Source of the DNA: Treponema sp.
GTDB lineage: Bacteria > Spirochaetota > Spirochaetia > Treponematales > Breznakiellaceae
Reading direction: 5' to 3'
Length of the DNA stretch: 62,930 bases
NCBI GenBank assembly: GCA_009777535.1
Contig: WRLP01000015.1
Coordinates: 1 to 62,930 of the forward strand
Shown: positions 3,726-55,680 of the stretch, one piece after another
Layout of the letters: every line of letters starts with the position of its first letter
How positions within the stretch are numbered: position 1 is the first letter of the stretch
The notes under the pieces: generated by a model
Seen by the model: only the letters and a program-made list of their open reading frames with translations
The model's database searches: none
What the model was told of the DNA's origin: nothing
Made by a program: the position numbers and the translations under genes

Positions 3726-5179
3726 TAATTAACAGTGCCCGGATTTTGACTTACAAATTTTTAACCACTAACCACACTAACCACCACGAACAAGAAGAAA
3801 AAAAAGAAAGCGTTGCATCAAGGGTTATCGTTGTTCGTGAGGTTCGTGGTAAATTCTTGTTTTTATTATTATTAATTGCAGTATCTTTGCCAGCACAGGA
3901 TTTTGGGTTTGGATTTGATGATGAAGAAACCGGCAATTCAGGCGGTACAGCCGGTTCCTTAAACGTTTCTGTTAGCGGAGAGGCTGCAGCATCAATAGTA
4001 GGTTACATCAATGATTTTTCCGATGGAATCGATCAGGTTCGGCTTGGTGATATATTCACCGGAAAGCTTAACTTTTCAGCACAAACATCCCTTGCAGAGG
4101 GCGTTATCAATTTGAACCTCAATCCCTCATCCTCGCCAATAGGCATTGATGAAGCGTATGTGCGTGTGTATCCTGGCAGTTTAGATATTACAGCCGGGCT
4201 GCGGAAGCTCACCTGGGGTAAAGCCGATAGTTTTGGTCCACTTGATGTAATCAATCCGTTGGATACTTCTGAAATATATACCGTAATGGCGGATCAAAGT
4301 AACCTAATGGGTGTAAAAATCGCCCGCCCCCTTGTCCATATTTCATTCCGGTTCGGGCAGTTCTCCAAGGTTGAAGGGGTGTTTGTGCCTTGGTTCCAAC
4401 CGCATCGCATTGCCGAAACCGGAAGATGGGCCGATTCCCAAATGGGACTACTGACGAATCCGCCAATGCCAGTAACGATAACAGAACCGGATACGACTAC
4501 GCTAAATTATGCGCAAGGGGGAATTAGGTTTACTACTACTATTGGATCATCGGACATCGGAGCACAGTATTACTATGGACGGCTGCCGCAGCCATCTGTA
4601 AGATTTGTTTTCAATCCACCTGATCCAACACCGCAGGTAGATATTTTATATAATCCCTATCACCAGATTGGATTTGATTACGCGCAAGTTTTGTTTGGGT
4701 TTAATACCCGGGCAGAGCTAGCTGCAAACATCACCGAAGATTTAAAAGGCGATGACGGGTCTATATATAATCCCTCTATAGCTTGGTCTTTAGGCTTTGA
4801 CCGGGATATTGTTTGGGGTATAAATCTAAATTTACAAATAAACGAAAGCATCCGTCTCTTTCATGGCAAAACCGGTAGTGATGACCCTATGAGTGTAATG
4901 AGCGGTGATTTTGACATTGAGGGCGGCTTGCCCTTAACCAATACCCGCCTTACCGCAACAGTTTCAAAAAAAATTTTCCGTGATGAACTTGAACTGCGAA
5001 CAGCTGTGGTTTGGGGAATGGAAGACTCCGATTGTGTTATTATGCCGGCACTTATCTGGACGAAAGACGAGATCTGCTTTGCCTTTTCCGGCGGTTTTTT
5101 CGCCGGAAATTCCGAAGGGCAGCTTGGGCAATACCGGGATAATCATTTTCTAAAAGTTTCTTGTACCTATACATTTTAA
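3722..5179 (+). CDS. Putative outer-membrane beta-barrel protein with a repeat-derived N-terminus
   Basis: A 485-residue protein with the look of an outer-membrane barrel: many alternating strands, a Gly/Asp-rich early region and a C-terminal aromatic strand ending KVSCTYTF. It resembles DUF1302-type proteins encoded with MMPL exporters. The GTG start overlaps the preceding stop (GTGA). The first ~40 residues are unusual: they are encoded by a copy of the dispersed palindromic repeat (3761-3852), giving low-complexity NHTNHHEQEEKKE. A proper signal peptide (KFLFLLLLIAVSLPAQ) begins only after it. The in-frame start codons before the hydrophobic core are GTG 3722 and TTG 3746; there is no ATG. 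Either the repeat is translated as a long pre-signal extension, or translation starts at a codon I cannot identify. Confidence 0.72.
   Translation: MIINSARILTYKFLTTNHTNHHEQEEKKESVASRVIVVREVRGKFLFLLLLIAVSLPAQDFGFGFDDEETGNSGGTAGSLNVSVSGEAAASIVGYINDFSDGIDQVRLGDIFTGKLNFSAQTSLAEGVINLNLNPSSSPIGIDEAYVRVYPGSLDITAGLRKLTWGKADSFGPLDVINPLDTSEIYTVMADQSNLMGVKIARPLVHISFRFGQFSKVEGVFVPWFQPHRIAETGRWADSQMGLLTNPPMPVTITEPDTTTLNYAQGGIRFTTTIGSSDIGAQYYYGRLPQPSVRFVFNPPDPTPQVDILYNPYHQIGFDYAQVLFGFNTRAELAANITEDLKGDDGSIYNPSIAWSLGFDRDIVWGINLNLQINESIRLFHGKTGSDDPMSVMSGDFDIEGGLPLTNTRLTATVSKKIFRDELELRTAVVWGMEDSDCVIMPALIWTKDEICFAFSGGFFAGNSEGQLGQYRDNHFLKVSCTYTF
3761..3852. repeat. Dispersed palindromic repeat family A, copy 1 (inside a gene)
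   Basis: The left arm reads ttaaccactaaccacac and the right arm gttcgtgaggttcgtgg; they are imperfectly complementary. The same arms recur at 11369-11512, 48229-48316 and 55605-55680. This copy lies within the open frame of the barrel protein, between its start codon and its signal peptide. The other three copies are intergenic. Confidence 0.8.
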
Positions 5180-5212
5180 AGACGCATGTAAAAACAGTAA
5201 TTTTCGCACGAT

Positions 5213-5249
5213 TTAACATTTCCTTAACAACTTCTTAACAGCGCATAAT
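5213..5249 (+). promoter_or_regulatory. Pho-box-like triple direct repeat with a -10 element
   Basis: TTAACA occurs three times exactly, at 5213-5218, 5224-5229 and 5235-5240, with 5-base spacers, so the period is 11 bases. A -10-like CATAAT follows at 5244-5249. Known PhoP boxes of Bacillus are TTAACA-type repeats with 5-base spacing. An OmpR/PhoB-family response regulator is therefore a plausible activator of the 11-mer repeat genes downstream. Which regulator binds is inference. Confidence 0.6.
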
Positions 5250-5319
5250 ATCAGATTCCTATATTTAGGGCATAACCTGTTGTATTTCAGGTTAACTAAT
5301 TTTTATGGAGGTTTTTATT

Positions 5320-5730
5320 ATGAAAACCAAAAAGGCGATTTTAATTGGACTAATCACAGTATTAGTCACCGGCGGTTCGGTGTTCTGCGTTGAATCTGAA
5401 CAGATTGTACAGGCCCCAATCAGAGAAAATGGCATTGTCAGGGTCTACAGAGCCATTGAAAATGGTGTCGTTTCCGGCTACAGGGCGATTGAGAACGGTG
5501 TTGTTTCCGGCTACAAAGCCATTGAAACTAAATTTGTCAATGCCTTTCTGACCCCAAAGCATAATTCGGCTATAGAAGATGGTGTTACTGTTAGCTACAA
5601 TGCAATTGAAAACGGGGTAGCTGCCGGCGTTAGAGCGGTAGAAGATGCTTTCACGTATGGTGAAAGAGCTGTTGCTGAAGTATTTATGGATACTTCCTTT
5701 GAAGCAACAACTGAATTGCCGGAAGAATAG
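5320..5730 (+). CDS. Exported protein made of 11-residue IENGVVSGY repeats
   Basis: I do not recognise a named function. The ATG at 5320 has a GGAGG ribosome site 8 bases upstream; an in-frame ATG at 5305 lies before that site and is less likely. The 136-residue product starts with a signal peptide (MKTKKAILIGLITVLVTGG). It then has about seven 11-residue units such as ENGVVSGYKAI, ETKFVNAFLTP and EDGVTVSYNAI, and an acidic tail. Eleven-residue repeats with this polarity pattern (charged Glu/Asn, hydrophobic pair, aromatic, Ile) usually form long amphipathic helices that lie on membranes or coil together. The next small gene encodes a non-exported version. Similar YKxIE-type proteins occur, to my memory, in gut Firmicutes. 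It is preceded by the TTAACA repeats. Confidence 0.75.
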   Translation: MKTKKAILIGLITVLVTGGSVFCVESEQIVQAPIRENGIVRVYRAIENGVVSGYRAIENGVVSGYKAIETKFVNAFLTPKHNSAIEDGVTVSYNAIENGVAAGVRAVEDAFTYGERAVAEVFMDTSFEATTELPEE

Positions 5731-5756
5731 GCAAAATATTTTATAGGAGTAAAGTC

Positions 5757-5930
5757 ATGAAGGGAAAAATTGGAACAGTATACAATGCAATTGAAAAAGG
5801 TGTTGTCACAGGCTACAAAGCCGTCGAAAATGGGGTTGTTTCAGCTTATAAATCAGTTGAAGATAAGTTTGTTGATACTTTTTTGGCGTCAAAAAGCGAC
5901 ACACCTGATGAAAAGGGTGAAGATAATTAA
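5757..5930 (+). CDS. Small 11-mer repeat protein, cytoplasmic paralogue
   Basis: A 57-residue protein with the same 11-residue repeat as its neighbour: EKGVVTGYKAV, ENGVVSAYKSV, EDKFVDTFLAS, then an acidic tail. It has a good ribosome site (AGGAG) 6 bases before the ATG and follows the exported paralogue by 26 bases, so the two are probably one transcript ending at the terminator at 5956. It has no signal peptide, so one member of the pair would stay inside the cell and the other be exported. The exact function is unknown. Confidence 0.72.
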   Translation: MKGKIGTVYNAIEKGVVTGYKAVENGVVSAYKSVEDKFVDTFLASKSDTPDEKGEDN

Positions 5931-5955
5931 TGTTTTATCTTAATTATTTGATGAA

Positions 5956-5986
5956 GGCTGTCCAAATAGAATGGGCAGCCTTTTTC
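5956..5986 (+). terminator. Rho-independent terminator after the 11-mer genes
   Basis: A 9-base stem (aggctgtcc with gggcagcct, one G-U pair) closes a 9-base loop and is followed by a T run at 5982-5986. It lies 25 bases after the small gene's stop. Confidence 0.85.
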
Positions 5987-6017
5987 TGCTAAATCCGATA
6001 TAAATAAGATAATTGTT

Positions 6018-8549
6018 ATGAACAGGATATTTATCATTGTCGCACTTCTTGCCATTTCATTTTTTACATTCTCCTGCGCCATATCCAAAGCCATCTATCT
6101 CGGCCGCAATGATCATTCATCAAGAACAGGCTCGCCGCTTTCCACAGAATTTACAAAAGCAGAAAATATTAACGGTATTTTTCCCGAGGCCGTACATATT
6201 AAAACAAGAACACAAACATTTAACACCTATCATTATTATATCCTCAATGACGGCCTTATCTGGTATAAGAGCATAGACTCGCAGCAAGAGCCAAAAGACT
6301 GGACTCTCTTTATGAAAACCGGACTTCCCCATGCCAGAAAACGGGGCTTTATAAAACCAACAGCAATTACAGAAATATCGGCGGATGCCGATGAACTGGC
6401 CGCGCTTTCTTCAGATGGATTTTTATACAGTTATTGTTTTGATAAGACACTTGCCCTTAGAAGTAATGGCTGGCTTGACAAGCAGGGCTGGCCCGAAGCC
6501 GGATATTTTTACTTCGACCGGCGAACCGCAGCTAACCGGTCTTGGGCTTTAGGCAAGCGCAACAGCCATGTGCTCTATTACGAAGATATATTCGGCAACC
6601 AGCACCACAATGGTTCAATGGAAATTGCCACATTTTATGTGCTTTTGGAAAACGGGCAGGAAATATGTTACGGTGATCCCGGCCTGCCCAGTGACTTTTC
6701 GCGTAACTTCATCGGGCCTGAGCGAGGGACATTCAAAGCCATTGCGTTATCGGCAAGCGCCTCGACCATGTTTTTGGTCAATGAAGCCGGTGAAATGTAC
6801 ACCCGCCTTGCCGACTTTGACACTATCGGCTGCGACCCCATGTTTTTCAAGTACACTTATATCCCCTATGCCTCTGATTTATCCGGAACGGATTATTTTT
6901 CCAACCTTAATGAATGGGGACTGCCTTCGGAAGACTGGCGTTCCCAGCCGCGCATACCCTTAGACGGAAAGGCCGCCGTTACCCGCCATATTACCATATT
7001 GCAAAACGGTCAAGGCAATGGCTCACGGGAATTGCGTGTTGCCGGCCTGGATGAAGATGGAAATACCGGTTACTGGTACAAGCCAATTTTTGATGATTCA
7101 TGGGAATTCAAAACAGCGCCCCTGTACATTGATGAGACGGTTTTGATAACGGCTGAAAACAGCGGCACTACAATACAGGGCGAACGGGGACTGTCTTTGG
7201 ATAAATACTATGCAGGTTTCCAGTGGAACGACAATGAAAAAGAAAACAATTGGGAATATCAAATTCCCAACTTCAATATACTTGAAGGCGATTGTGATCT
7301 TATCATTACCTGGCAGGGAGAAACATGCATATTTAAACTTCACCCGCTTGAAATGTGGACGTATCTAAAACGGGACTACCTGCCCGGCAGGACCGGATCA
7401 CCAAAAATGTTCAATGTTACATTGGAAATACCCGATGACGCATTCGATTCATTAAGCGATGCATTTATCCGTCTGCTGACAGAACGATACATGAAAAATA
7501 ACAAAAAATTATACCACTATACTATCGCAGCTACAGACTCCTACATCATAATGCGTGATACTGATAATATTAATTCACTATTATTTTTAACAGTTGAAAA
7601 TATTTCCAATCAGTATTCTGAATTACTTATTGGGCAATATATAGATAATTTTGAGGAAGTACAGCGCTTTTATTCACCGGAACTTACCCTGAAACGGGAT
7701 TCTGATATTACTTTAGATGAACTAAACAGGAAGCTTGCTCTTAACAGGCAATACATGGAAGAATTAAAATATAAAATCCGTGTTCTAAAATGGTCGCAGC
7801 TTACCGTATTCAAATTTAATGCCGGATATATACCCGCACACTATATTGTAAAGATTTCTCCCTTACGCTTTGTCGATGTGCCTAAAATCAGAACAGTGAC
7901 AAGTTATGGGAAAGAGCTGATATTGGCAAACAGCGCTTATATAAATTCAACGGCAAATAGCCGGATTTGGTTATATGAAAAAATTATTGAACTATTGGAA
8001 ACCCGCATTATCTGTTACAATGATTTGCTGGTAACACAAAATAATATAACATTGCCTGCATGGTACTCCGAAAGAATATCGGATTATTGGGACATTGCCG
8101 GTCTTCCCCGTACAATATCAGGGACGTTTTCTTATTTGGATATAACTTTTAAAAATATGGAGATTCCTGCCCATCTGTCCTTTGTTCCACTCCAAACAGA
8201 ACATGACATTTCCGGCTGGTTTCTTGCAATTTCTGACAGCACAGATTTCTCTGTTTTTTTTGCGCCCCGGAACATTTCAAAAATAATCTACTCCCGTAAA
8301 GGTAAAACTCCGCAAGAACGCAGGCTTTCGCTTAGAGGCACTCTGTATATCAATAATGCCGCCAATTCACCGGTCGAAGGTTATATTTTAGAGTCATTTT
8401 TAAGACCATATCAAAAATCATATATGAAGGCATACAGCAAAGAAAAAGGAGAAGGTATTGAAGTAAGAATTACATTCGATGGAAGAACGTTTGAAATAAG
8501 GGAATATCCAATAAGAAGAGACAGACCCCCCATTTTTACAGGTGCTTGA
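6018..8549 (+). CDS. Large lipoprotein of unknown function
   Basis: An 843-residue protein with an N-terminal hydrophobic segment ending in a spirochaete-style lipobox (TFSC, Cys20), so it is probably a lipid-anchored surface or periplasmic protein. I recognise no domain. The N-terminal half is rich in Trp, Tyr and Gly and alternates short strands, as in a propeller or beta-sandwich. The middle (about 470-640) is more helical, with a stretch around LNRKLALNRQYMEELKYKI that could be a short coiled coil. It stands alone between the terminator at 5956 and the dehydrogenase gene, with about 100 bases before the latter. The ribosome site before the ATG is weak. Confidence 0.7.
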   Translation: MNRIFIIVALLAISFFTFSCAISKAIYLGRNDHSSRTGSPLSTEFTKAENINGIFPEAVHIKTRTQTFNTYHYYILNDGLIWYKSIDSQQEPKDWTLFMKTGLPHARKRGFIKPTAITEISADADELAALSSDGFLYSYCFDKTLALRSNGWLDKQGWPEAGYFYFDRRTAANRSWALGKRNSHVLYYEDIFGNQHHNGSMEIATFYVLLENGQEICYGDPGLPSDFSRNFIGPERGTFKAIALSASASTMFLVNEAGEMYTRLADFDTIGCDPMFFKYTYIPYASDLSGTDYFSNLNEWGLPSEDWRSQPRIPLDGKAAVTRHITILQNGQGNGSRELRVAGLDEDGNTGYWYKPIFDDSWEFKTAPLYIDETVLITAENSGTTIQGERGLSLDKYYAGFQWNDNEKENNWEYQIPNFNILEGDCDLIITWQGETCIFKLHPLEMWTYLKRDYLPGRTGSPKMFNVTLEIPDDAFDSLSDAFIRLLTERYMKNNKKLYHYTIAATDSYIIMRDTDNINSLLFLTVENISNQYSELLIGQYIDNFEEVQRFYSPELTLKRDSDITLDELNRKLALNRQYMEELKYKIRVLKWSQLTVFKFNAGYIPAHYIVKISPLRFVDVPKIRTVTSYGKELILANSAYINSTANSRIWLYEKIIELLETRIICYNDLLVTQNNITLPAWYSERISDYWDIAGLPRTISGTFSYLDITFKNMEIPAHLSFVPLQTEHDISGWFLAISDSTDFSVFFAPRNISKIIYSRKGKTPQERRLSLRGTLYINNAANSPVEGYILESFLRPYQKSYMKAYSKEKGEGIEVRITFDGRTFEIREYPIRRDRPPIFTGA

Positions 8550-8655
8550 GGCAGCCTTCCCCCAATTTGACAAATTTAATTTACCATGAGAAAATGTATA
8601 TCTGCGGTGTACTCAATTTGATGCAACAAAACCTAATATCATTTTGGAGGAAAGA

Positions 8656-9609
8656 ATGAAAAACGTAACATGTTTTGGCACAGGTTTAATTGGCACTGGA
8701 TGGAGCGTCGTCTTCCTGCGAGGCGGCTGCAAGGTTAAACTTTACGATATCGATCAGGGCAAGATAGATGACGCAAAGAAAAATCTTGACACAATACTGG
8801 ATTTCCTGGCTTCCAAGGGGCTAATGAATGAAGATCAACGCAAGCAATACCTGGCAAATGTCTCTTTCACCATGGATGTTCCGGAAGCTGTTAAAGACGC
8901 TGATTTTATTCAGGAAAACGGCCCGGATAACCTGGAGCTTAAACAAAAGATTATTAAATCTATTGAAGACAACTGCCGGCCGGACACAATTATTGCTTCT
9001 AGTACATCCGGTCTGCTCATTGCAGATATAGCCGCAGGCGCAAAAAATCCGGAACGTATACTGGGAGGCCATCCCTATAACCCGCCTTATATGATGCCAT
9101 TGGTTGAGATTTCAAAAACTGATAAAACCTCACAGAAATGTGTTGAAGCAGCGCGGGCTTTTTACATTGAATTGGGAAAGGAACCGGTAATCCTTAATAA
9201 GGAAGTAAAAGGATTCCTGTGCAACCGCATTCAGGGTGTAGTCTGCCGCGAAGCCATGGATTTGGTTAACAAGGGTGTATGTACGGTTGAAGATATCGAC
9301 AAAGCCATAGTATTTGGTCTGGGGCTGCGCTGGGGAGTAATAGGTCCGCATCTTGTTAATACTTTGGGCGGCGGCGCCGGCGGGTTTAAACAATTCTGGC
9401 ATCACCTGTCAACCACGTTCACAAATATTCTTAAAGATATTGACAACTGGTCTGATATTCCGCCTGCCGGTTATGTTGAAAAAGCCGAACCGCAAATTGC
9501 CCAGGAAATGGCCAACCGTGCCAAAGGTACCGGTCAAACTGTTGATGAACTAAGGGCATATTTAAATAACGGTATGGTTGAGCTTCTTAAATTCCATAAG
9601 AAATTCTAG
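8656..9609 (+). CDS. 3-hydroxyacyl-CoA dehydrogenase family protein
   Basis: NAD-dependent dehydrogenase of 317 residues, of the single-domain-pair type seen in 3-hydroxybutyryl-CoA dehydrogenase and lambda-crystallin/gulonate dehydrogenase. The N-terminal Rossmann motif is GTGLIGTGW. The catalytic-region histidine motif is GGHPYNPP, and the C-terminal helical domain begins near [11 protein letters not shown]. The start at 8656 is set by a GGAGG site 5 bases upstream; the frame extends to a TTG at 8644 that lies on that site. It is followed after 17 bases by a Sir2 deacylase, so the two are likely cotranscribed. The substrate is not certain: short-chain hydroxyacyl-CoA or a sugar acid are both possible for the family. 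Confidence 0.87.
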
Positions 9610-9626
9610 CAGCTGAGGCAATAATA

Positions 9627-10379
9627 ATGAAAACCCAGGACATAGGCGCACTGTTCACACTGATAAAAGAAGCGAAACATCTGGTTGCGTTGACCGGAGC
9701 CGGAGTAAGCACGTTGTCGGGGATTCGTGATTTCCGCGGGAAGAACGGCCTTTACAATGAAATGGACGCACAAAAAATATTCGACATTGAATATTTTATT
9801 CAGGACCCTTCACTTTATTACGACAGGGCGGGATCGTTCATATACAACATTGATGAAAAAGAAGCGTCGATAGTGCACACAGTCCTGGGTGATCTTGAAA
9901 AGAGGGGATTTCTTAAAGCCCTGATCACTCAAAACATAGACCTTCTCCACCAAAAGGGCGGCAGTAAAAACGTGATAGAAATTCACGGTTCCCCGAGGAT
10001 TCACTACTGTATGCGCTGCGCCGGTGTGCGAATGGATTTTAAAGAAGCCACATCCATCGTCCGTTCCGGCGAATTGCCTAAGTGCCCCAAATGCTCCAGG
10101 GTATTAAAACCGGCAATCACTTTTTTCGGCGAAAGTCTGCCTGCCGATGCCCTGCGCGAGGCCGTAACCGAGTCCCAAAAAGCGGATTTGATGCTCGTAC
10201 TGGGAACCAGCCTTACTGTACACCCTGCCGCTTCCATGCCCGATTACACTTTGCGCAGCGGCGGCAGGATTGTCATTGTGAACAATATGCCGACTCCATT
10301 AGACGGACAGGCGGTAATGCGTTTTGATGATTTAGGTTTAGTTTTCGAAGAACTGAAACACTGCCTTGACGCATCATAG
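9627..10379 (+). CDS. cobB: Sir2-family NAD-dependent protein deacylase
   Basis: Sirtuin of 250 residues that removes acyl groups from protein lysines using NAD. Visible motifs are the NAD-binding [24 protein letters not shown], the catalytic histidine in EIHGSP, a zinc site with two CxxC pairs (CMRC and CPKC), ITFFGESLP, and [11 protein letters not shown] near the end. Length and order are standard for bacterial CobB. It follows the hydroxyacyl-CoA dehydrogenase closely, so the pair may link acyl-CoA metabolism and deacylation. The tail overlaps an open frame leading into the next gene, but that gene's true start lies later. Confidence 0.93.
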
Positions 10380-10452
10380 ACTGATTTACACCTTACAAAA
10401 AAGACCTTTACTATCGGATGAATATGGCTTAGTATTTTTAATGGGGTTATTA

Positions 10453-11322: not shown

Positions 11323-11368
11323 AGAAAGCAAAACCGGTAGAATGTAAAAGCTAATTCCTTGTATTATT

Positions 11369-11512
11369 ACCACAAACCACACTAACCAACACGAACTTGT
11401 TGTTAGAAAACTCATTTTTACCTCCAGATCCCATGAAATAAAGAATAATCATAATGGTTTTCCAAAATTATCGAACTAGTGGTTAGTGTCTGTTCGTGAG
11501 GTTCGTGGTTAG
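11369..11512. repeat. Dispersed palindromic repeat family A, copy 2
   Basis: The arms at 11369-11397 (accacaaaccacactaac) and 11479-11512 (gttcgtgaggttcgtgg) are complementary at about 21 of 27 positions and enclose about 80 bases. It fills the gap between two convergent genes (the small outer-membrane protein and gltX), where it could act as a bidirectional transcription stop. Confidence 0.8.
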
Positions 11513-11525
11513 ATCTTGTTAGGCT

Positions 11526-13007
11526 TTAGCTACTACAGGCTAATATGGCTCTTTGCACGCGCCGCAGAGATTCTTCGGGTCCAAGAATACGCAGGGAACC
11601 AAACAGGGGCGGGCTGACTCTCGCGCCGGTAATGGCGACGCGCAGCGGCATCATTAAATCCCCCAGCTTAACACCCTTTTTTTCAGCCTCTGCCTTAATA
11701 AAAGCTTCCGCCTTTTCATCATCCGGCGCCTGCGCCAGGGAAACAACAAGGTCTTTGCCAAGCTTCAAAAGCTCCACCGCCTGTTCCAGGGTTGATTTTT
11801 TGGGAATGAATTCTTCGGCGCCGGGAATCGCCGGCTCGTTAAAAAGATAGGCGATCTTTTCCGCAGCTTCGTTCAGGAAGGTAAGCCGCTCCCTGATCAA
11901 TGGCATGGCGGCAGTAAAAATATCGCGCTGTTTCGGCGCCGGCTCCCTACCCTGTGCGCCAAAAAAACCGGCCTCTATTGCAAAGGGCAGGCACAGGGAA
12001 GCAAGTTCTTCATCACTTTTCATTCTTATGTACTGGCCGTTAAACCACTCCAGCTTTTTATAATCAAAAACCGCCGGCGCCTTGTTCAGCTTGTCCAGGC
12101 TGAAGCGCTGCTCCATTTCTTCCAGGGTATAGATTTCCTTTCCTTCCTCATAGGAAGCTCCCAAAAGGGCGACATAGTTCAGCAGCGCTTCGCTTAGATA
12201 ACCCTGGCGGCGGAACTCGTCAATGCTTGTCGCGCCATGCCGCTTGGAGAGTTTTTTTCCGTCCTGCCCCATCACCATTGGCAGATGGCAGAATTCAGGC
12301 GTCTTCCAGCCGAAACTATTGTACATGATCACATGCAGGGGCGCCGACGGAAGCCACTCCATGGCGCGCATTACATGGCTTATTTCCATAAGGTGATCGT
12401 CAACCACATTTGCCAGATGGTATGTGGGAAAGCCGTCCGATTTAAGCAGAACAGGATCGGGGTTTATATCATCATTTTTCCATTCGATATCGCCAAGCTG
12501 ATGATCAAAAAAAACAGTGGTTTCGTTCAATGGAATTTTCAGCCTGATGGTGCAAGGCTCGCCGGCCTCGGCCCTTTTGCCGGCTTCTTCGGCGGGTATA
12601 TTTCTGCAAAGACGGTCATAACCGGTTTCAGAGGAATGAGACGCTTCCCTCTCCTGCCGGATTTTGTCGAGCCTCTCGGACGAGCAAAAACAGTAATAGG
12701 CATTGCCCGATTTTAACAGTTCACCGGCGTATTTTTTGTAAAGAGCCGTACGCTCGGACTGGACGTAGGGGGCGAACGGCCCGCCGGCATCCGGCCCTTC
12801 GTCCCATTTTATTCCCAGCCAGGCAAAAGAGTCGTAAATGTTTTGCACATAACATTCGCCGAAACGGGTGCGGTCGGTATCTTCCAGCCTGAGTATGAAT
12901 TTGCCCCCCCTTGACCTGGCAAAAAGGCAGTTAAACAGGGCTGTTCTGATCCCGCCGACATGCTGAAGCCCTGTCGGAGAAGGCGCGTAGCGGTCTCGAA
13001 TAATCAT
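11526..13007 (-). CDS. gltX: Glutamyl-tRNA synthetase
   Basis: Class I aminoacyl-tRNA synthetase of 493 residues that charges tRNA-Glu. The N-terminus has the standard RYAPSPTGLQHVGG with the HIGH-type signature as HVGG. FILRLEDTDRTR follows, and the KMSKS-type loop is KLSKRHG. The C-terminal anticodon-binding part begins near the QRFSLDKLNKAPAVFDYKKL segment. The length is normal for bacterial GltX. It is transcribed divergently from the M18 aminopeptidase with 58 bases between the starts and ends next to repeat family A copy 2. Confidence 0.96.
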   Translation of the reverse strand: MIIRDRYAPSPTGLQHVGGIRTALFNCLFARSRGGKFILRLEDTDRTRFGECYVQNIYDSFAWLGIKWDEGPDAGGPFAPYVQSERTALYKKYAGELLKSGNAYYCFCSSERLDKIRQEREASHSSETGYDRLCRNIPAEEAGKRAEAGEPCTIRLKIPLNETTVFFDHQLGDIEWKNDDINPDPVLLKSDGFPTYHLANVVDDHLMEISHVMRAMEWLPSAPLHVIMYNSFGWKTPEFCHLPMVMGQDGKKLSKRHGATSIDEFRRQGYLSEALLNYVALLGASYEEGKEIYTLEEMEQRFSLDKLNKAPAVFDYKKLEWFNGQYIRMKSDEELASLCLPFAIEAGFFGAQGREPAPKQRDIFTAAMPLIRERLTFLNEAAEKIAYLFNEPAIPGAEEFIPKKSTLEQAVELLKLGKDLVVSLAQAPDDEKAEAFIKAEAEKKGVKLGDLMMPLRVAITGARVSPPLFGSLRILGPEESLRRVQRAILACSS

Positions 13008-13065
13008 GTGATTTACTATATCCTATACAGTAAGCGCCTTTCAAGGCGGGAAGAACGGAGGCATA

Positions 13066-14484: not shown

Positions 14485-14544
14485 AAAACTGTTAGTTAAA
14501 TTTATACTGATTGAATGCCTATTCGTTAATTCAGGGGGAGAAAA

Positions 14545-43002: not shown

Positions 43003-43013
43003 TTTTTTCTCCG

Positions 43014-43607: not shown

Positions 43608-43609
43608 CT

Positions 43610-46255: not shown

Positions 46256-46325
46256 TTACCAAACATATCTCCAGCTTCAATAATACTAAAAAAACAGCTT
46301 TCTCGGCTATAGCAGGCGGGCTTTC

Positions 46326-47450: not shown

Positions 47451-47497
47451 GGCGGCAATAACTAGAAAATCTGCAACTCTCAGTGTATTATTCCTCC

Positions 47498-48187
47498 ATG
47501 CAGGAAAAAAACATTATTCATCTTATGGTAGGGCCTATCGCCACAAACTGCTGGATTTGCCCCATACCGGAAAGTAAAGACGACGGACATACGGCATGCG
47601 CAATAATCGATCCCGGCGCCGACCCTGATAAAATTATCAGTGTGTTAAATCAGCTTAAATACATTCCCCGTTATATTCTACTTACACACGGGCACTTTGA
47701 CCACATTGGAGCGCTGCCGTTTCTTTATTCTGAATACAGAAAAGAATCCAATGGCAAGGCCTGGCCGCAAATCGCCATTCATGGTCTGGATTCCCAATAC
47801 CTTGGTTCCGCTTCTTACAAAGAACACCGGATCAGTTTTGAGTTTGCAGCCGGAAGCGCAGATGTAATTGACGAATATTGGAATGATATGCCGGCCCATG
47901 ACTTTCTGCTGGAAGAAGGCGGTACGGTGGGTCAATTTACAGTTCTCCATCTGCCCGGGCACACAAAGGGAAGCATAGCGCTCTGGGACAAAGAAGGAAA
48001 AAACCTTTTTTCCGGAGATACGCTGTTTAAGAGCGGGCGCGGCAGGACCGATCTGCCCGGCGGAGACGAAGATGAAATTTTCGATAGTTTGAACCGGTTA
48101 TTCCAAATGGACGGAGATATCAGGGTATTTCCCGGCCACGGTCCGAGTACTACAATCGGCGCCGAAGCCAGACGGGGTATTTTTTAA
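47498..48187 (+). CDS. Metallo-beta-lactamase-fold hydrolase (glyoxalase II-like)
   Basis: 229 residues of the MBL fold. Metal-binding motifs are LTHGHFDHIGALPF, LPGHTKGSIALW, NLFSGDTLF and FPGHGPST, as in hydroxyacylglutathione hydrolase-like enzymes of anaerobes. I take ATG 47498; GTG 47483 is an alternative, and neither has a clear ribosome site. The likely role is hydrolysis of a thioester or similar small substrate. It ends before repeat family A copy 3. Confidence 0.88.
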   Translation: MQEKNIIHLMVGPIATNCWICPIPESKDDGHTACAIIDPGADPDKIISVLNQLKYIPRYILLTHGHFDHIGALPFLYSEYRKESNGKAWPQIAIHGLDSQYLGSASYKEHRISFEFAAGSADVIDEYWNDMPAHDFLLEEGGTVGQFTVLHLPGHTKGSIALWDKEGKNLFSGDTLFKSGRGRTDLPGGDEDEIFDSLNRLFQMDGDIRVFPGHGPSTTIGAEARRGIF

Positions 48188-48228
48188 CTTTGCCAGATAA
48201 GCAAGAGAACGTCTGAAAAATCTAATTT

Positions 48229-48316
48229 TACCACGAACCTCACGAACAGACACGAAAAAAGCTTAAAAGAGCCTTTCAACTGCGCGGGTTCGTGTTGGTT
48301 GGTGTGGTTTGTGGTA
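48229..48316. repeat. Dispersed palindromic repeat family A, copy 3
   Basis: The arms 48229-48257 (taccacgaacctcacgaac) and 48287-48316 (ggttggtgtggtttgtgg) are complementary at about 23 of 28 positions with a 30-base loop. Relative to copy 2, the arms are in the opposite order. It lies between the MBL gene and the biotin promoter. Confidence 0.82.
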
Positions 48317-48352
48317 AAAAATAAAAAAGCATGAGTGATTTGAATAATTATC

Positions 48353-48400
48353 TTGACATTCCATCTTATCTCTGTTAACCTGTTAAATATTGAGGTTAAC
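48353..48400 (+). promoter_or_regulatory. Biotin operon promoter with BirA-type operator
   Basis: TTGACA at 48353-48358 is spaced 17 bases from a weak -10 TAACCT at 48376-48381. Over the -10 lies the inverted repeat GTTAACC (48374-48380), 13-base spacer, GGTTAAC (48394-48400), ending at the bioY start codon. The BirA operator of other bacteria is two such half-sites (GTAAACC/GTTAACC) about 14-16 apart. The birA gene at 50403 has a DNA-binding domain and lies in the same operon, so feedback repression by biotinyl-BirA is likely. Confidence 0.72.
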
Positions 48401-48967: not shown

Positions 48968-49727
48968 TACGCAAGCCGTCAGGCTGTTAAATATTACAAA
49001 AAAATTTTCTGTTTCAGAAGATGAATACACTGATAAAGAGCGGATAAAAGATGGTGCCTTTTTCGCGCTGGATGATATTTCCTTCACATTGGAAAAAGGC
49101 GGCTGCACAATGATCTGCGGGGCGAATGGCTCCGGAAAAAGTCTGCTGATGTCAATTATCGCGGGACTGGAGGAGCTAAGTTCAGGCAGCGTAAGCACCT
49201 CTTCCAGGGTTGGGCTGATATTTCAGGAGCCGGATAATCAAATATTAGGTGAAACTGCCAGAGAGGACATTGCCTTCGGGCCGGCGAACCTTGGCCTTGC
49301 CAAAGAAACAGTTCAGTCCCGCACAATAGCCGCCCTTGCCGAAACAGGTCTTACGGCAATAGCGGATTTTCCGGCGCGCTCCCTTTCTGGCGGTGAAAAG
49401 CGGCGGCTCGCCGTCGCCGGAGTTCTTGCAATGGACGCAGAAATAATCATTTTTGATGAACCTTATGCCAATATGGATTACCACGGCGTTGTGCAGATAA
49501 ACTCCCTGGTAAAAAAAATTCTGGCGGAAAATAAAACAATAATTATTCTAACCCATGAAGTTGAAAAATGTCTTGCTTTGGCAAATCGTTTTATTGTGCT
49601 TTTCAAGGGCAGGAAGGTCTATGACGGCAGCGCACAGGACGCCCTCCTGCTTGACCTTGAATCCTGGGGTATACACAATCCGCTGGGCAAACCCGTTAAT
49701 AAATATGAGGATATGTTATGGCAATGA
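48960..49727 (+). CDS. bioM: ECF transporter ATPase (BioM type)
   Basis: 255 residues. The energy-coupling ATPase of the biotin importer: Walker A GANGSGKS, Q-loop LIFQEPDNQ, signature LSGGEKRRLA, Walker B IIIFDEPYANMD and switch ILTHEVE. It is one polypeptide, so it presumably acts as a homodimer. An acidic N-terminal loop (about 15-30, EDEYTDKERIKDG) is unusual. It overlaps bioY by 8 bases and bioN by 10. Confidence 0.9.
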   Translation: MADTQAVRLLNITKKFSVSEDEYTDKERIKDGAFFALDDISFTLEKGGCTMICGANGSGKSLLMSIIAGLEELSSGSVSTSSRVGLIFQEPDNQILGETAREDIAFGPANLGLAKETVQSRTIAALAETGLTAIADFPARSLSGGEKRRLAVAGVLAMDAEIIIFDEPYANMDYHGVVQINSLVKKILAENKTIIILTHEVEKCLALANRFIVLFKGRKVYDGSAQDALLLDLESWGIHNPLGKPVNKYEDMLWQ

Positions 49728-50413
49728 AAAGCGCGGCGGTTTTCAGGTACAAGACGGAAAAGGGGCCGCTCCATAAGCTTCCTATTGTATTAAAACTTTT
49801 ACTTTTACTGCCGCTTTCGGTACTTTGCATGTCACTGCCCCTTTTCCTGCTTGCAGCAGGAATTATTTCCATTGCCGTCATCGCCTTCCTGTGCGGCTTT
49901 TCATACCGCGAGCAGTTGACCGATTTAAAACCTGCCCTTTTTTACGCGCTTCTCATGTATGCCCTGTCTGTGTTTTCGCTGATCGTCGAAAGGTTTCCTT
50001 CTTTCAGCGTTTCGGTGTTCCTTCCCATGGCCGGATTTATTCATATCGCCTTACGCCTTGTTTTGATCATACAGTTATCCGCTCTTTTGTTCCGCAGCAC
50101 AAGCTCCATCGAAATCCGCGGCGGCATAATTGCCATTGAGTGTTTTTTCAGGCGATGTATTTCCCGCCTGCCAGTTATCGGAAAGCATGTATCATCGGCT
50201 CCGCGTTTCGCGCAAAATATATCCCTGTTTTTAAGTTTTATTCCCGAAATCTTTGAAACATGGAGTATAATTAATTTTGCCTGGCGGGCGCGGGCAGGAA
50301 AAAACGGTATCATTAAAACAAAAACCCTTGTTTTTGTTTTAATATCGCTCAGCATGGAAAAAGCGATGCGCAAGACAAACGCCATCACCGCAAGGAGGGG
50401 GTATGATAAATGA
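49718..50413 (+). CDS. bioN: ECF transporter transmembrane protein (BioN type)
   Basis: A T component of 231 residues with about five membrane segments (LLLLPLSVLCMSLPLFLLA, then others). The cytoplasmic coupling motif reads FAWRARAGKNG near residue 190, matching the A-R-G motif that docks on the ATPases. It completes the BioYMN transporter. The stop overlaps birA by 11 bases. Confidence 0.9.
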   Translation: MAMKSAAVFRYKTEKGPLHKLPIVLKLLLLLPLSVLCMSLPLFLLAAGIISIAVIAFLCGFSYREQLTDLKPALFYALLMYALSVFSLIVERFPSFSVSVFLPMAGFIHIALRLVLIIQLSALLFRSTSSIEIRGGIIAIECFFRRCISRLPVIGKHVSSAPRFAQNISLFLSFIPEIFETWSIINFAWRARAGKNGIIKTKTLVFVLISLSMEKAMRKTNAITARRGYDK

Positions 50414-51404
50414 AAAAAAATTAAGCACCAAAGCGCTGGTACTCATTGAGCTGAGGGAAAAACAGAAGCCTGTTAACGGCAACGCCCTGGCCAGGACACT
50501 GGGTATTTCAAGGGTTGCAGTCTGGAAGGCCGTACAGGCCCTTACAGAGGCTGGCTACAAAATCGAAGTATCAAAAAACGGATACTTTCTCGATCCAAAA
50601 AAAGATAAAGATTTTCTTTACCCCTGGGAATTCGGCGAAAAAGAACCGCTGTTTCGCCACTTTGGAAACACCGGCAGCACCATGGACAGGGCAAGGGAAT
50701 TGGCAATAACGGGAGCGGCCGCCGGCACGGTAATAACTGCTGAAAAACAAAGCGCCGGAAGGGGGCGTAACGGCAGAACATGGATCTCCCGCCAGGGCGG
50801 ATTATTCTTTACCATAATCGATCGCCCCACCCTCCCTCTGGCGGATTATATCCTTCACTCGCTTGTTATTCAGATTGCCGTAGCGCGTACGGTTTCGTCT
50901 GTCTGCGGGAAACAGGCGCATATCCGCTGGCCCAATGACATATATATCAGCCGCAGAAAAATAGCGGGCGTTATTACGGAAATTTCGGGCGAAGGAGACA
51001 TGATAAACTGGCTTTCCACCGGCGTGGGTGTAAACATAAACAATTACGCAGTTTCGGGAAAATCTGCAAGCTGCGCGGAAATAACGGGGAAGCCTGTTTC
51101 CCGCAGGGAAGTATTAATCAGGATTCTTGATGAAATAGAAAAAGTAAAAAAGCGATTCAGTTCAGGCGCGGTATACGCCCAGGGCAACAGGTATCTGGCT
51201 GACGAATGGAATTCCATGACCGACTGCATCGGCGTAAAGGCGGCAATCCTTGATCAAGCCGCTTCCAACGACAAGCAGGGGCGTGTTCTGGCCAGGGGAG
51301 TATTCGACGGAATTGATCCGGCGGGCAGGTGCATTCTAAAAACCGAGGGCGGCAGGGGGAACCTGTACTTTAACCCCGGCCCCGTATCAATGATCTATAT
51401 GTAA
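50403..51404 (+). CDS. birA: Biotin-[acetyl-CoA-carboxylase] ligase and biotin repressor BirA
   Basis: 333 residues. An N-terminal winged helix-turn-helix (NALARTLGISRVAVWKAVQA) comes before the ligase domain with GRGRNGRTW, FFTIID, RWPNDIY and KIAGVITE. It is therefore the two-function form: it attaches biotin to carboxylases and represses biotin genes when biotin is ample. A strong AAGGAGGGG site lies just before the ATG. It is the last gene of the operon controlled by the operator at 48374-48400. Confidence 0.94.
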   Translation: MINEKKLSTKALVLIELREKQKPVNGNALARTLGISRVAVWKAVQALTEAGYKIEVSKNGYFLDPKKDKDFLYPWEFGEKEPLFRHFGNTGSTMDRARELAITGAAAGTVITAEKQSAGRGRNGRTWISRQGGLFFTIIDRPTLPLADYILHSLVIQIAVARTVSSVCGKQAHIRWPNDIYISRRKIAGVITEISGEGDMINWLSTGVGVNINNYAVSGKSASCAEITGKPVSRREVLIRILDEIEKVKKRFSSGAVYAQGNRYLADEWNSMTDCIGVKAAILDQAASNDKQGRVLARGVFDGIDPAGRCILKTEGGRGNLYFNPGPVSMIYM

Positions 51405-51409
51405 GGGCC

Positions 51410-52525
51410 CTAATTCGGCAGAATAATTGCGTGCACCTTGATGTTTCTTTCCTCGACCGCCTTATCAACAATTTCCCTGGTAATTCTTCCCCTCGGTCTT
51501 GGGTGGGGCGGCGCGTCGCCTATCAGAAACATCACCCTCGATTCGGCTGCCCACGGAAACTTGATCGCTCCCTCGTTTAGAGCCTCGTAGACCGCCTCTG
51601 GAATATCGCCGCCGCCGCCGACCCGAATCGCGTTCAGGTTGCGCTGGAAAAGGTTAAAATCACTTGTAAAGGGGACTACCCTGTTCATGTACTCATCATT
51701 GTAGTCCTTGTAAAGAACCATGCCAATTCTAAACGAGGAAAAATCGGCGAGCAGTTCATTCAGCATGGGAATAAGTTTCTGGCGTACCGGATCGATGTGG
51801 GGTCTCATGCTGCCTGTAGTATCAAGACAGATAACAAGGTCAAGTTCATTGCCCTTTTCCTTTTCCAGCGCGCCGCGAATCCTGTCTATTAAATCATCGC
51901 TGCCGGTTGAGTAAATCAGGTCCCCGCTGCCGGATACGGCGATTTCACCAAACGCCTCGACAGCTTCTTTCATGTAATTTCCGTCCGGCGGCCCTGGCGG
52001 CTCCTGTGTCGCCTCCATGATAAAGGGGTTGTCCCTGAATGCGCCCCGGTAATCGGCGTAGGGAAGGCTAAAAGCTCTTATGTTAAAATAGGTCCCGTCG
52101 GTAACATAGACCTCGCCATGCCGGCCGCCTTCATAGCCGTAATAGAGCATGTAGGGGATATACACATGAAAAGCCGGACCCATCACACTGTGATTTACAA
52201 CCGTGGAAGAAACAAGTGAATAAATGCGGCTTTCCCTGGTAATTGGCACGCCGTTAAGCAAACGTATCTCGTCGCCGTTTACCTCGTTCCATTCCCCGGC
52301 CCGGTATGCATAATTGTCCGCACTCTGGCCGGGATCCCTGGTGGACTCGGTCAATAACACCGAGCCTATCGCTGGTTTTTTTCTGATGAACAGGTGAAAG
52401 CCGCCCTCCGGCCGGTGCTCTATCAATACATCTTCCCTATTTATCGTTAAATCCTGGGAATAAATGGCAGGGTTATATATACACAAAAACAGCAAAAAGG
52501 TAACCACAACGGTCTTTTTGTTCAT
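51410..52525 (-). CDS. Exported VWA-domain protein
   Basis: 371 residues with a signal peptide (KTVVVTFLLFLCIYNPAIYS). The C-terminal half is a von Willebrand A domain with the metal-binding motif LDTTGSM (about residue 225) and later FLIGDAPPHPRP. The N-terminal half is a beta-rich domain of unknown type. It is probably outside the inner membrane, binding a protein ligand. It is convergent with birA (6 bases) and divergent from the HD hydrolase. Confidence 0.82.
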   Translation of the reverse strand: MNKKTVVVTFLLFLCIYNPAIYSQDLTINREDVLIEHRPEGGFHLFIRKKPAIGSVLLTESTRDPGQSADNYAYRAGEWNEVNGDEIRLLNGVPITRESRIYSLVSSTVVNHSVMGPAFHVYIPYMLYYGYEGGRHGEVYVTDGTYFNIRAFSLPYADYRGAFRDNPFIMEATQEPPGPPDGNYMKEAVEAFGEIAVSGSGDLIYSTGSDDLIDRIRGALEKEKGNELDLVICLDTTGSMRPHIDPVRQKLIPMLNELLADFSSFRIGMVLYKDYNDEYMNRVVPFTSDFNLFQRNLNAIRVGGGGDIPEAVYEALNEGAIKFPWAAESRVMFLIGDAPPHPRPRGRITREIVDKAVEERNIKVHAIILPN

Positions 52526-52563
52526 ATCTTTAATTATCGGGCTATATAGTGTATATTTTTATA

Positions 52564-53379
52564 ATGAGATCGCCCAAGGAACTCGGCCTTGACAATAAAC
52601 TGATCAAGGTAATTGATGCTTTCAAACTTTCGGGAAAAGCCCTGAAGGGTATAAAGCTGATGTTGTCGGATGAGGAAATTCAGGCCGCCCAGGAATACGC
52701 CAATACGGTATCGATTGTTAGGCTGGGCTTTAATGATCACGGGCCCGTTCACATGAGGACTGTTGCCCTGAACGCGGTAATCATGCTTGGCCTGTTAAAA
52801 AAAGCCGGTATTAGCACCACCATCGAAAACGAAAAGTGCGGCGACTTTGAGGACAGCCTTGTCGCGGTAATTTTCGCAGCCATGCTGCACGACATCGGCA
52901 TGAGCCTTGGACGTCAGGATCACGAAGTACACAGCACTACGCTCGCACGCACGATTTTGGAGAGGATACTCGCCCAGGTCTACCATGATGATATCCGCAA
53001 AAGCGTGATAATCCGTTCCATGACGATGGAAGGCATTGCCGGCCACATGGGCAACCGTTCTGTCAGTTCTCTGGAAGCGGGAATTGTCCAGGTAGCGGAC
53101 GGCTGCGATATGACCAAGGGCAGGGCGCGGATTCCCATGTTCCTAAACCAGACTCCAAAGGCCGGCCACATTCATCAGTATTCCGCGAATTCGATAGAAG
53201 AAGTAAAAATTGATGCCGGCAAAGACAAACCGATCCGTATTGTGGTGCGCATGTCCAGCGAGGTTGGCATCTTTCAGGTAGAAGAAGTACTGCTGAATAA
53301 AATCGCGAACAGCACCGCCAAGCCCTACATTGAGTTATACGCCCAGGTAAATGATGAGGCGCCCAGGCAGTACCTTTAA
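52564..53379 (+). CDS. HD-domain phosphohydrolase
   Basis: 271 residues. Metal-binding motifs: HGPVHMRT, AAMLHDIGMSLGRQDHEVHS (HD with following His) and VADGCDMTKG, which together form an HD phosphohydrolase. The domain resembles those acting on nucleotides. ATG 52564 is preferred to GTG 52549; neither has a strong site. The DinG-like helicase begins 6 bases after it, so the pair is cotranscribed. Confidence 0.83.
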   Translation: MRSPKELGLDNKLIKVIDAFKLSGKALKGIKLMLSDEEIQAAQEYANTVSIVRLGFNDHGPVHMRTVALNAVIMLGLLKKAGISTTIENEKCGDFEDSLVAVIFAAMLHDIGMSLGRQDHEVHSTTLARTILERILAQVYHDDIRKSVIIRSMTMEGIAGHMGNRSVSSLEAGIVQVADGCDMTKGRARIPMFLNQTPKAGHIHQYSANSIEEVKIDAGKDKPIRIVVRMSSEVGIFQVEEVLLNKIANSTAKPYIELYAQVNDEAPRQYL

Positions 53380-53385
53380 CATTAC

Positions 53386-55467
53386 ATGGCGCATAAATTA
53401 AATCCCGAATATATTATCTCAACAATGGAAGAAGGCGGGGCCGTAGCGGGCGGCCTCCCCTACTATGAAAAAAGGCAGGCGCAGCTCGATTTAACAGAAA
53501 TGGTTGTAACCGCCTTTAACGAGGAAAAAATTGCCGCCGCCGAAGCGGGCACAGGGGTTGGAAAATCATTTGCCTATCTTGTTCCGGCTGTGTGTTTTTC
53601 CCTGGAAAATAAAGAAAAGGTGATAATTTCGACGGCGACAATTAATTTGCAGCAGCAGCTCTTTGAGAAAGACATTCCAATGGTTGCCCAGGCTCTTGAT
53701 AAAAACATAAAGGCTGTATTGATGAAGGGCAGGGCTAATTATTTATGCCGCCGCAGACTTGATGATGCGCTTAAAGAACCTGAACTGGGGGAAGAAGTCG
53801 TAGAAATGAACCGCATCGCACAATGGGCGGAAAAATCCGGCACGGGAAGCAGGACAGAGCTTCCCTTTATGCCGCATGAAGGGGCATGGGCAAAAATATG
53901 TTCGGAATCCGATAGCTGCATGAACAATGCCTGCCCGTGGCGTGAACGCTGCTTCGTTACCGCCCTGCGCAAAGAGGCATCCGATGCAAACATAATCGTT
54001 GTAAACCACCATCTGCTGTTCGCGGATTTGGCTGCCCGTTTCCAGGGCGCAGGTTACGAAAGCGCAGTTGTACTGCCCCCCTACAGGCGCCTGATAATCG
54101 ACGAAGCGCATACAATCGAAAAGGCGGCTACTTCATTTTTTTCGCAGGAATTCAGCTCAACAGGAATTTTTGCCCTGCTTGGAAGGCTTTACCACAGAAG
54201 AAGACAGGGACGCCGCGGTCTTCTTGTAAAGCTGTTATCCGACGAGGCCGCCCTGGATCGACTGACAACTGGAATGGAAAAAATTCGCACATGCACAGAT
54301 GAACTGGAAAACGCCGCCTTCCAGTCCTGCGGAATTGAAGGGGTATTAAGGCTTTCACCTTATGGCAATGGAGGCGGCTATGAATCGGCACTGTTCCCCG
54401 GATTCAGGGCGCTGGCAAAGAGCATTCTCGCCTTTACATCGACAGTCCGGGAAACGACAGAAAATTTTGATGAGGAAGAAGGGGGTGATCCCCTTATGTG
54501 GGAATTAAAGATAATTCTACGCAGGCTCGATGCTGTCGCCGAAATTTGCGCGGCTTTTCCCGAATACCGCAGCAAGCAAAACGAGGTGCTTTGGCTGGAG
54601 AGGAAATTCCACAGGAGCGGCAGGCCGACTGTAACATTTACAATAACTCCGCTGGATTTGGCGCATATTCTTAAAAGCAGCTTGTTTTCACCTAACAAAA
54701 CAATAGTCTGCGTATCCGCCACCCTTGCCGTGAACGGAGACTTTGGCTACTGGGCGGCGCGCTGCGGCATCGGCGAAACCGAAAACCGTCAATTTGTTTC
54801 AGGCTGCTTCCCCTCCCCCTTCCCCTATTCAAGAGCCGTACTCCTCGCGGCGCCGGCGGACGCCCCGCTGCCCAACGAAGACGGCTGGCAGGACTTTATC
54901 GATCAGGCCGTCGCACAATTAATCTCCGTTGCCGGCGGATCGGCGCTTGTTCTGTTTACATCTTACCAGTCGCTTTCCAGCGCTTGGACGGCGGCGCAGA
55001 ATGTTTTGCAGCCCCTGGGCATTCGCTGTCTTAAACAGGGGGAGGACGACCGTTCACGGCTTTTACAATCTTTCCTCTCGGATAAAAGTTCGGTTCTATT
55101 CGCCACAGATTCGTTCTGGGAGGGAGTAGACGCCCCCGGCGACACCCTGAAGCTGGTAATACTGTGCCGCCTGCCATTCCGCACCCCCGGCGACCCCGTG
55201 TTCGAAGCCCGCCGCGAAGCGGTGGAAAAAAACGGCGGGAATCCCTTTATGGAACTTTCGCTGCCCGAAGCGGTAATGAAATTCAAGCAGGGCTTCGGCA
55301 GACTGATACGCCGCTCCAGCGACTCCGGAGTGGTCGCCGTCCTTGACTCCAGGCTGATCAAAAAACAGTACGGACAGTTATTTCTTAGGTCGCTTCCTGA
55401 AACAAGAACAAGTTTTACAGAGTTCGACAGCATACTAAGGGAAACGGAAAGATTTCTTTGGGGCTGA
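53386..55467 (+). CDS. DinG/Rad3-like ATP-dependent DNA helicase
   Basis: 693 residues of helicase superfamily 2, iron-sulfur type. Walker A is EAGTGVGKSFAYLVP, then ATINLQQQL; the DEAH box is LIIDEAHTIEK. A four-cysteine cluster loop (C in YLCRR, and KICSESDSC, NACPW, RERC) fits the iron-sulfur domain. Motifs V-VI: FWEGVDAPG and KQGFGRLIRRSSD. It probably unwinds DNA in repair. It follows the HD hydrolase gene in the same operon; the downstream 300 bases are repeat-rich. Confidence 0.92.
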   Translation: MAHKLNPEYIISTMEEGGAVAGGLPYYEKRQAQLDLTEMVVTAFNEEKIAAAEAGTGVGKSFAYLVPAVCFSLENKEKVIISTATINLQQQLFEKDIPMVAQALDKNIKAVLMKGRANYLCRRRLDDALKEPELGEEVVEMNRIAQWAEKSGTGSRTELPFMPHEGAWAKICSESDSCMNNACPWRERCFVTALRKEASDANIIVVNHHLLFADLAARFQGAGYESAVVLPPYRRLIIDEAHTIEKAATSFFSQEFSSTGIFALLGRLYHRRRQGRRGLLVKLLSDEAALDRLTTGMEKIRTCTDELENAAFQSCGIEGVLRLSPYGNGGGYESALFPGFRALAKSILAFTSTVRETTENFDEEEGGDPLMWELKIILRRLDAVAEICAAFPEYRSKQNEVLWLERKFHRSGRPTVTFTITPLDLAHILKSSLFSPNKTIVCVSATLAVNGDFGYWAARCGIGETENRQFVSGCFPSPFPYSRAVLLAAPADAPLPNEDGWQDFIDQAVAQLISVAGGSALVLFTSYQSLSSAWTAAQNVLQPLGIRCLKQGEDDRSRLLQSFLSDKSSVLFATDSFWEGVDAPGDTLKLVILCRLPFRTPGDPVFEARREAVEKNGGNPFMELSLPEAVMKFKQGFGRLIRRSSDSGVVAVLDSRLIKKQYGQLFLRSLPETRTSFTEFDSILRETERFLWG

Positions 55468-55474
55468 GAAAAAA

Positions 55475-55596
55475 GCAGATAACGAATAGCAAATAACAAG
55501 TAAGAATTGCTCATTGCTACCTGCTTATTGCCCCGTGCCTCCGCGTGAAATAACTCGAGATGCACCTCACGCAAAGACGCCAAGACGCAAAGAAGA
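55475..55596. repeat. Repeat cluster after the helicase (families D and C)
   Basis: agcaaataac...gctcattgctacctgctt (55475-55532) is a self-complementary short-repeat string, followed by a 'cctccgcgtgaaata' ... 'ctcacgcaaagacgccaag' unit (55534-55594). Similar D-type text recurs at 55683-55728, 56754-56862 and 58933-59045, and the C type at 56733-56755. Confidence 0.7.
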
Positions 55597-55604
55597 AGAA
55601 TAAA

Positions 55605-55680
55605 ACCACGAACCACACGAACAGACACGAACTTTTTCAATCGCTCCTTTGTTCGTGATTGTTGGTGTGGTTAGTGGTAA
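55605..55680. repeat. Dispersed palindromic repeat family A, copy 4
   Basis: The arms at 55605-55632 (accacgaaccacacgaac) and 55651-55680 (gttggtgtggttagtgg) match at about 24 of 28 positions with an 18-base loop. It is the shortest and cleanest copy. It lies 77 bases before the antitoxin gene. Confidence 0.85.

Follow-up and report, generated by a model that had tools for sequence, protein, structure and literature searches.

A dispersed palindromic repeat in a Treponema genome and its likely relation to genes of the GxxExxY nuclease family

The palindromic repeats described here are probably MITE-like elements without a gene of their own, with arms that a nuclease of the GxxExxY family reads and cuts, so that they are copied or moved; the probability of this reading is put at about 60%. 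Copies of the repeat (family A) are present or absent at orthologous sites. Full elements exist in which one GxxExxY gene is bracketed by the same kind of inverted ends, and a code that relates protein clade to arm sequence spans phyla. Binding, cleavage and mobilisation in trans would then be the work of the GxxExxY protein, and the copies in the stretch examined were presumably made by a C-class protein (classes are defined below) since lost from, or missed in, the assembly.

Four copies in the window

The window is the whole stretch of DNA that was analysed, 62,930 nucleotides from Treponema sp. The four copies that the initial annotation had placed there were recovered. A 17-nt arm pattern matches the window eight times where 0.84 would be expected; seven of the matches are within the four copies and one is a weak stray. 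Since none of 100 shuffles reaches eight, chance alignment of the arms, which the initial annotation had allowed for, does not account for them. The features are as follows.

3764..3850, + strand: copy 1, 87 bp; left-type arm at 3764-3791, right-type arm at about 3823-3850
11369..11509, + strand: copy 2, 141 bp; arms at 11369-11396 and 11482-11509; belongs to the 140-bp sub-family and has the interior common to it
48230..48315, - strand: copy 3, 86 bp; arms at 48230-48257 and 48288-48315; arm order opposite
55568..55593, + strand: G-class arm CACGCAAAGACGCCAAGACGCAAAG, immediately preceding copy 4; same arm syntax, other letter class
55605..55678, - strand: copy 4, 74 bp; arms at 55605-55632 and 55651-55678; arm order opposite

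The 28-nt arms of copies 1 to 4 are identical at 20, 22, 22 and 24 positions, that is 71–86% pairing where roughly 75–85% had been claimed, and lie 31, 85, 30 and 18 nt apart (18 to about 80 in the earlier estimate). The opposite arm order reported for two copies is also real: the left arms of copies 1 and 2 match the right arms of copies 3 and 4, and vice versa. On single-strand folding, copies 3 and 4 clearly beat shuffled sequence (z −5.3 and −6.9) and copies 1 and 2 are no better than it (z −1.5 and −1.8). An Rfam search of the window matched no known RNA family. [The candidate function of intrinsic terminator was rejected, as the T-run is 5′ of the hairpin and the A-run is 3′.]

Copy 1 is between the end of an ORF (2919-3725) and a downstream gene that starts at GTG 3722 or TTG 3857. 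Copy 2 is in the gap of convergent genes, adjoining a 493-aa ORF (11526-13007), and copy 3 is directly 3′ of ORF 47483-48187. On C12 and C36 of the genome there are close relatives of copy 4 whose loop is the same, and copies on C36 and C4 are also adjoined by stretches resembling the G-class arm at 55568-55593. [The frame of the gene downstream of copy 1 is open across all of the copy (window 3722-5179), so that translation as an N-terminal extension is possible; in a Treponema locus (L197) and a congener (G106) an arm is likewise in frame with a GxxExxY start.]

The family across the genome

The genome of the window's organism (G000), a relative of termite-gut Treponema, is a 2.77 Mb assembly of 47 contigs that is 92.8% complete. 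With at most two mismatches allowed, it has 45+45 arm matches against 5+4 for a reversed control. Pairing of these gives 33 elements of 60–269 bp, with inverted terminal repeats and a short or non-coding interior, and about 20 single arms (the pair listing has 34, one of which was left out as a chance pairing with gene sequence). The family is thus dispersed, as had been supposed, and not confined to four copies. By simple ORF calls the 33 copies are intergenic, with 14 in convergent gaps and two in divergent ones. The initial annotation's description of the loops as unrelated fits the four window copies and fails genome-wide, where two sub-families (about 140 and 151 bp) have a common interior; the remaining copies are short and their loops are unlike.

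The arm can be written AC-CACNAAC-CW-CACNAAC-NN(N)-CACNAAC, three CACNAAC units with a spacing of ~9–10 nt, and an A/T stretch, WWWTTTW, is 5′ of it. Its constant letters are nearly invariant across 66 arms. At three variable positions the two arms of a copy mismatch 83 times, against 59.7 by random pairing (0 of 20000 permutations); there is a G at the first variable position in exactly one arm in 27 of the 33 copies, and arm types within a copy differ beyond shuffled arms (p 0.0006), though these p-values are approximate as the copies are related to one another. The element therefore seems to have a distinct left and right end. The ends consistently differ, so that pairing is imperfect and two window copies fold no better than shuffles, and two distinct ends fit the mismatches above chance at the variable positions. 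This excess of mismatches and the poor folding of two window copies lend no support to the proposed role of the hairpin as the selected or mobilised unit; what is conserved looks like the arms as sequences. Maintenance of a hairpin through compensatory change was rejected on the same mismatches, and selection against pairing was dropped because two distinct ends explain them and because Caulobacteraceae have perfect arms.

Direct repeats flanking the 33 copies show no excess at any offset from 0 to 15; the flanks are A/T-rich and the copies possibly old. No autonomous copy was found in this genome, whose sole long arm pair (C5, 1.1 kb) is without a transposase. [That 1.1 kb (L020 1501-2619, equal to C5:152469-153587) is flanked by the arms of a copy of the 140-bp type; it encodes an aspartyl-protease-like product (PF13975, E 4e-7) and has a small antitoxin-like ORF. 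At C1:127525, C10:15850 and C43:8822 the same ~127-bp insert (CGATGCCGGGCGCACTACTCAGG...AACTTGGCGCCAA) is at the same arm position; the copies are of two different sub-families, and site-specific insertion or arm exchange may be the cause.]

GxxExxY genes between the arms

The arms of family A in L197 span 444 bp, and the single ORF inside encodes a GxxExxY protein (TIGR04256, E 3.4e-41; PF13366, E 8.8e-41). C-class arms bracket a GxxExxY gene in L249, L254, L296, L299, L301, L302 and L309, and the CACNAAC arms of the window match those of L249, L254, L296, L299, L301 and L309. Many of the PF13366 genes drawn from 150 genomes of the bacterial family, irrespective of arms, have periodic inverted arms of several letter classes abutting the ORF. 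In Caulobacteraceae and Verrucomicrobiota genomes that bear family A, 15 of 18 have PF13366 genes, many of them bracketed likewise. The arms are at the extremities of the GxxExxY ORF and in many cases run into its initial codons or its stop. The congener G106 has a GxxExxY gene with tandem gene-less hairpins beside it, and in Sphingomonas an element is placed between fabD and fabG.

To score the association, the upstream flank was aligned locally, once, with the reverse complement of the downstream flank. At a cut-off of at least 30, 41 of 70 GxxExxY genes have inverted arms, against 2 of 272 control ORFs and 3% of mismatched flank pairs; the Caulobacteraceae and Verrucomicrobiota genes were picked for arms and are to be read separately from the set taken irrespective of them, where 21 of 43 reach the cut-off. 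A fresh sample of the phylum gave 29 of 69 genes, against 1.3% of mismatched pairs. GxxExxY proteins occur in 55 of the 150 family genomes and, in the phylum sample, in 55 of 198. Phages have one weak relative, in a haloarchaeal virus. [In L356 (a plasmid of Fusobacteria ZRK30) and L362 (Prevotella nigrescens), periodic repeats flank GxxExxY genes in direct orientation.]

The window's own genome has no GxxExxY gene or remnant detectable with PF13366 or a clade-specific profile (E<=5) in its 92.8% complete assembly, and for this reason the copies in the window are classed with the gene-less relatives and not as full elements. Draft assemblies are incomplete and break at repeats, and may hide such genes, yet that is no evidence for them. 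Across the 150 family genomes, the co-occurrence of family-A arms with any GxxExxY gene (20 genomes) is not significant (odds ratio 1.6, p 0.13), and in the arm-rich genomes G057, G100 and G137 the gene is absent or a scrap, which counts against the nuclease reading. A control gene family, the four-helix-bundle genes of PF05635, has inverted arms at 6 of 29 loci, five of those six among the nine strongest matches, but these arms are of a different type and built from other units. Each of several small genes may thus have a periodic palindrome class of its own, which broadens the finding and is also a caution against taking arms alone as proof of action by the protein between them.

The protein and its letter code

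GxxExxY proteins (PF13366 PDDEXK_3, TIGR04256) have about 120 residues and belong to the PD-(D/E)XK family. In a 64-sequence alignment G18, G20, E23, Y26, D63, E73-x-K75, Q87 and Y91 are invariant. To judge from this alignment the active site appears intact, the catalytic D, the E-x-K and the Q-x3-Y all being invariant. The predicted structure is a confident nuclease fold (pLDDT 95.6). Its closest match is SSO0001 (4ic1, which we take to be a Cas4 protein; Foldseek E 3e-4, Z 10.0), followed by restriction enzymes, Holliday-junction resolvases and RecB-like nucleases, of which those under Z 8 indicate the PD-(D/E)XK fold and nothing finer. A sequence search of solved structures found no relative. 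We know of no precedent for transposition chemistry by a lone PD-(D/E)XK protein of this size, which, like the lack of a visible target-site duplication, counts against the nuclease reading.

The arm unit can be written C[AG]C-N-R-A-x, where x is the class letter; the window repeat, CACNAAC, is of the C class. Mapped onto a maximum-likelihood tree of 52 labelled proteins, x needs 6 changes, where shuffled labels need 25.6 (0 of 200 as low). Proteins of the GLLE type have G in all 43 scoreable cases (CACAGAG, CACAAAG, CGCGAAG), the GFLE-GAAM clade has T in 9 of 9 (CACGGAT, CACAGAT), and the GFLE-'FEVNR' clade has mostly C (CACGAAC, CACGGAC) or A, with T once. Spirochaete and proteobacterial members of one clade have the letter in common. 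The fresh phylum sample gave G in 24 of 24 scoreable GLLE genes; this label misses arms with AGGATT units (GFLE and GFQE clades of that sample), and those genes are unscored for class. Named finished records concur, with G-class arms at GLLE genes of Bacteroides finegoldii, Bernardetia, Gemmatirosa and Sphingomonas. How alike two arms are can be predicted from protein identity, also when the pairs are restricted to different phyla (rho 0.34, p 5e-4), by a first similarity score that is crude and often ranks the nearest arm unimpressively; the unit-letter label is clearer.

Distribution in relatives

The family is patchy. Its strict arm pattern is in 45 of the 150 family genomes, at 0 to 56 copies, with the reversed control at zero in every genome listed; in six other members of the genus, strict matches number 0 to 14. 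Among the matches listed from a scan of one genome per species, most are from termite-gut Treponema and Caulobacteraceae (Phenylobacterium, Asticcacaulis), with a few others, and since some non-spirochaete matches derive from gut samples of this kind too, mis-binned contigs are possible. Seven matches are in viral contigs, and no family-A hairpin was found on a plasmid.

Empty sites in relatives, which the initial annotation had pointed to as a check, do occur. Orthologous gene pairs have the copy in one member and lack it in the other for Phenylobacterium L114 against L180 and for the congener G078 against G139 and G106. In the latter case the hairpin of G078 is 3′ of the homologue of the gene preceding window copy 3, and there is none in G139 or G106.

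[In Treponema L131 (7777-7936), L185 (181-271), L191 (557-754) and L166 (466-597), small inner palindromes are inside or adjoining the arms; they have a ACCTNNGGT core (AACCTGCGGTT, AACCTTCGGTT, GACCTAAGGTC, TACCTTTGGTA) and their stems copy neighbouring bases. In Caulobacteraceae (L094 3428-3840, L111 998-1411, L089 2881-3102), palindromes of other classes are nested within the loops of CACGAAC palindromes, at times two deep.]

How the elements may spread, and the alternatives

The nuclease would recognise the units of its own ends, with each protein clade reading its own unit letter, and cleavage at those ends would allow the element to be copied or to move. Short elements with the ends but without the gene would rely on the nuclease in trans, as REPINs rely on RAYTs (REP-associated tyrosine transposases).

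The alternative that the repeats are MITEs of an ordinary DDE transposase, with the GxxExxY genes as cargo or later arrivals, is unlikely. It accords with inverted ends and varied interiors, with the absence of GxxExxY from many arm-rich genomes, and with the protease-like and antitoxin-like genes on C5, which indicate that other genes can be between arms. However, no target-site duplication was seen, no long arm pair among the loci examined has a transposase, and cargo would leave the tracking of GxxExxY clade by arm letter across phyla unexplained. The arms could serve the gene otherwise, for instance in regulation. Scattered copies would in that case be regulatory sites or decoys spread by ordinary duplication, and the arms operator or RNA-processing sites bound by GxxExxY; we consider this quite unlikely. 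The position of the arms at the very ends of the ORF and that of copies at gene 3′ ends suit it, but spread of the elements better fits a copy number that ranges so widely within one family, presence or absence between close species, nested and tandem copies, and the element between fabD and fabG.

No protein would be needed if replication slippage had formed and paired simple 9-nt tandem repeats, with the conserved arms as a side effect. The unit is indeed short and periodic, and related letter classes are in the same genomes, but 66 arms with invariant letters and fixed variable positions, consistent left and right ends, and the protein-clade code make slippage very improbable. Least credible of all is the partner that the initial annotation had suggested, a RAYT (an IS200-type Y1 transposase) moving REP or REPIN elements. 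In its favour, the palindromes are dispersed and intergenic, and most are in gaps of the convergent or tandem type. PF01797 is, however, absent from the genome assembly, and in 16 relatives the number of Y1 genes is unrelated to that of arms: the arm-bearing G106 and G057 have none, and G010, with the most (nine), has no strict arm. Furthermore, there is no REP-type internal palindrome in the arms, and none of the 33 copies has a GTAG or CGTC tag.

Relation to known systems

Comparison of the proposed nuclease system with REPINs and RAYTs draws in part on general knowledge. As far as the excerpts of the sources go (PMC3116915, PMC2817692, PMC3733652), the two have in common dispersed, mainly intergenic palindromes, a small cognate enzyme with a sequence class that corresponds to that of the repeat, and gene-less copies that exceed the gene in number. 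They differ in the enzyme, a Y1 HUH transposase there and a PD-(D/E)XK protein here, and in the ends: REPs are GTAG- or CGTC-tagged, whereas here the ends are periodic units and the gene is inside the arms. That gene belongs to the GxxExxY family (PF13366, TIGR04256). MITEs and other non-autonomous inverted-repeat elements are similarly short and gene-less, with inverted ends, a variable interior and a patchy distribution; the differences are the lack of a visible target-site duplication and of a DDE transposase with matching ends among the loci examined. GxxExxY shares with Cas4/RecB-type nucleases and Holliday-junction resolvases the fold and the conserved D, E-x-K and Q-x3-Y, but has 116 residues and is without a helicase or a CRISPR setting.

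More tentatively, and at somewhat below even odds, a GxxExxY gene with its arms may be among the smallest self-sufficient mobile elements: a ~120-codon PD-(D/E)XK gene, two periodic ends and a readable protein-to-DNA letter code, in many phyla, with gene-less swarms that include the window repeat. If so, there would be a further route, beside DDE and HUH enzymes, to dispersed bacterial palindromes. Periodic repeats such as CACAGATTACACAGATT, CACAAAGGACACAAAG and CACGAACCACACGAAC occur in numerous intergenic gaps, and the link would give them and GxxExxY a likely job. It would also make the protein–DNA code testable via arm swaps and provide a second system, independent of REPIN-RAYT, in which to study the persistence of palindromic DNA parasites in bacteria. 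The open-licence papers searched contain no match to the arm sequences and no link between GxxExxY and repeats, the word being used in passing.

The window also has palindromes of a 7-nt period (GCAAATAGCAAATAACAACTAGCAAAGAGCAA ... TTGCTCATTGCTATCTGCTAATTGCTATTTGC), at 56754-56862, 55472-55534 and 58931-59040. In relatives, some PF05635 four-helix-bundle genes (L328, L329, L331-L333) are bracketed by similar short-period inverted arms, and the window palindromes of this period may be a parallel class linked to another small protein.
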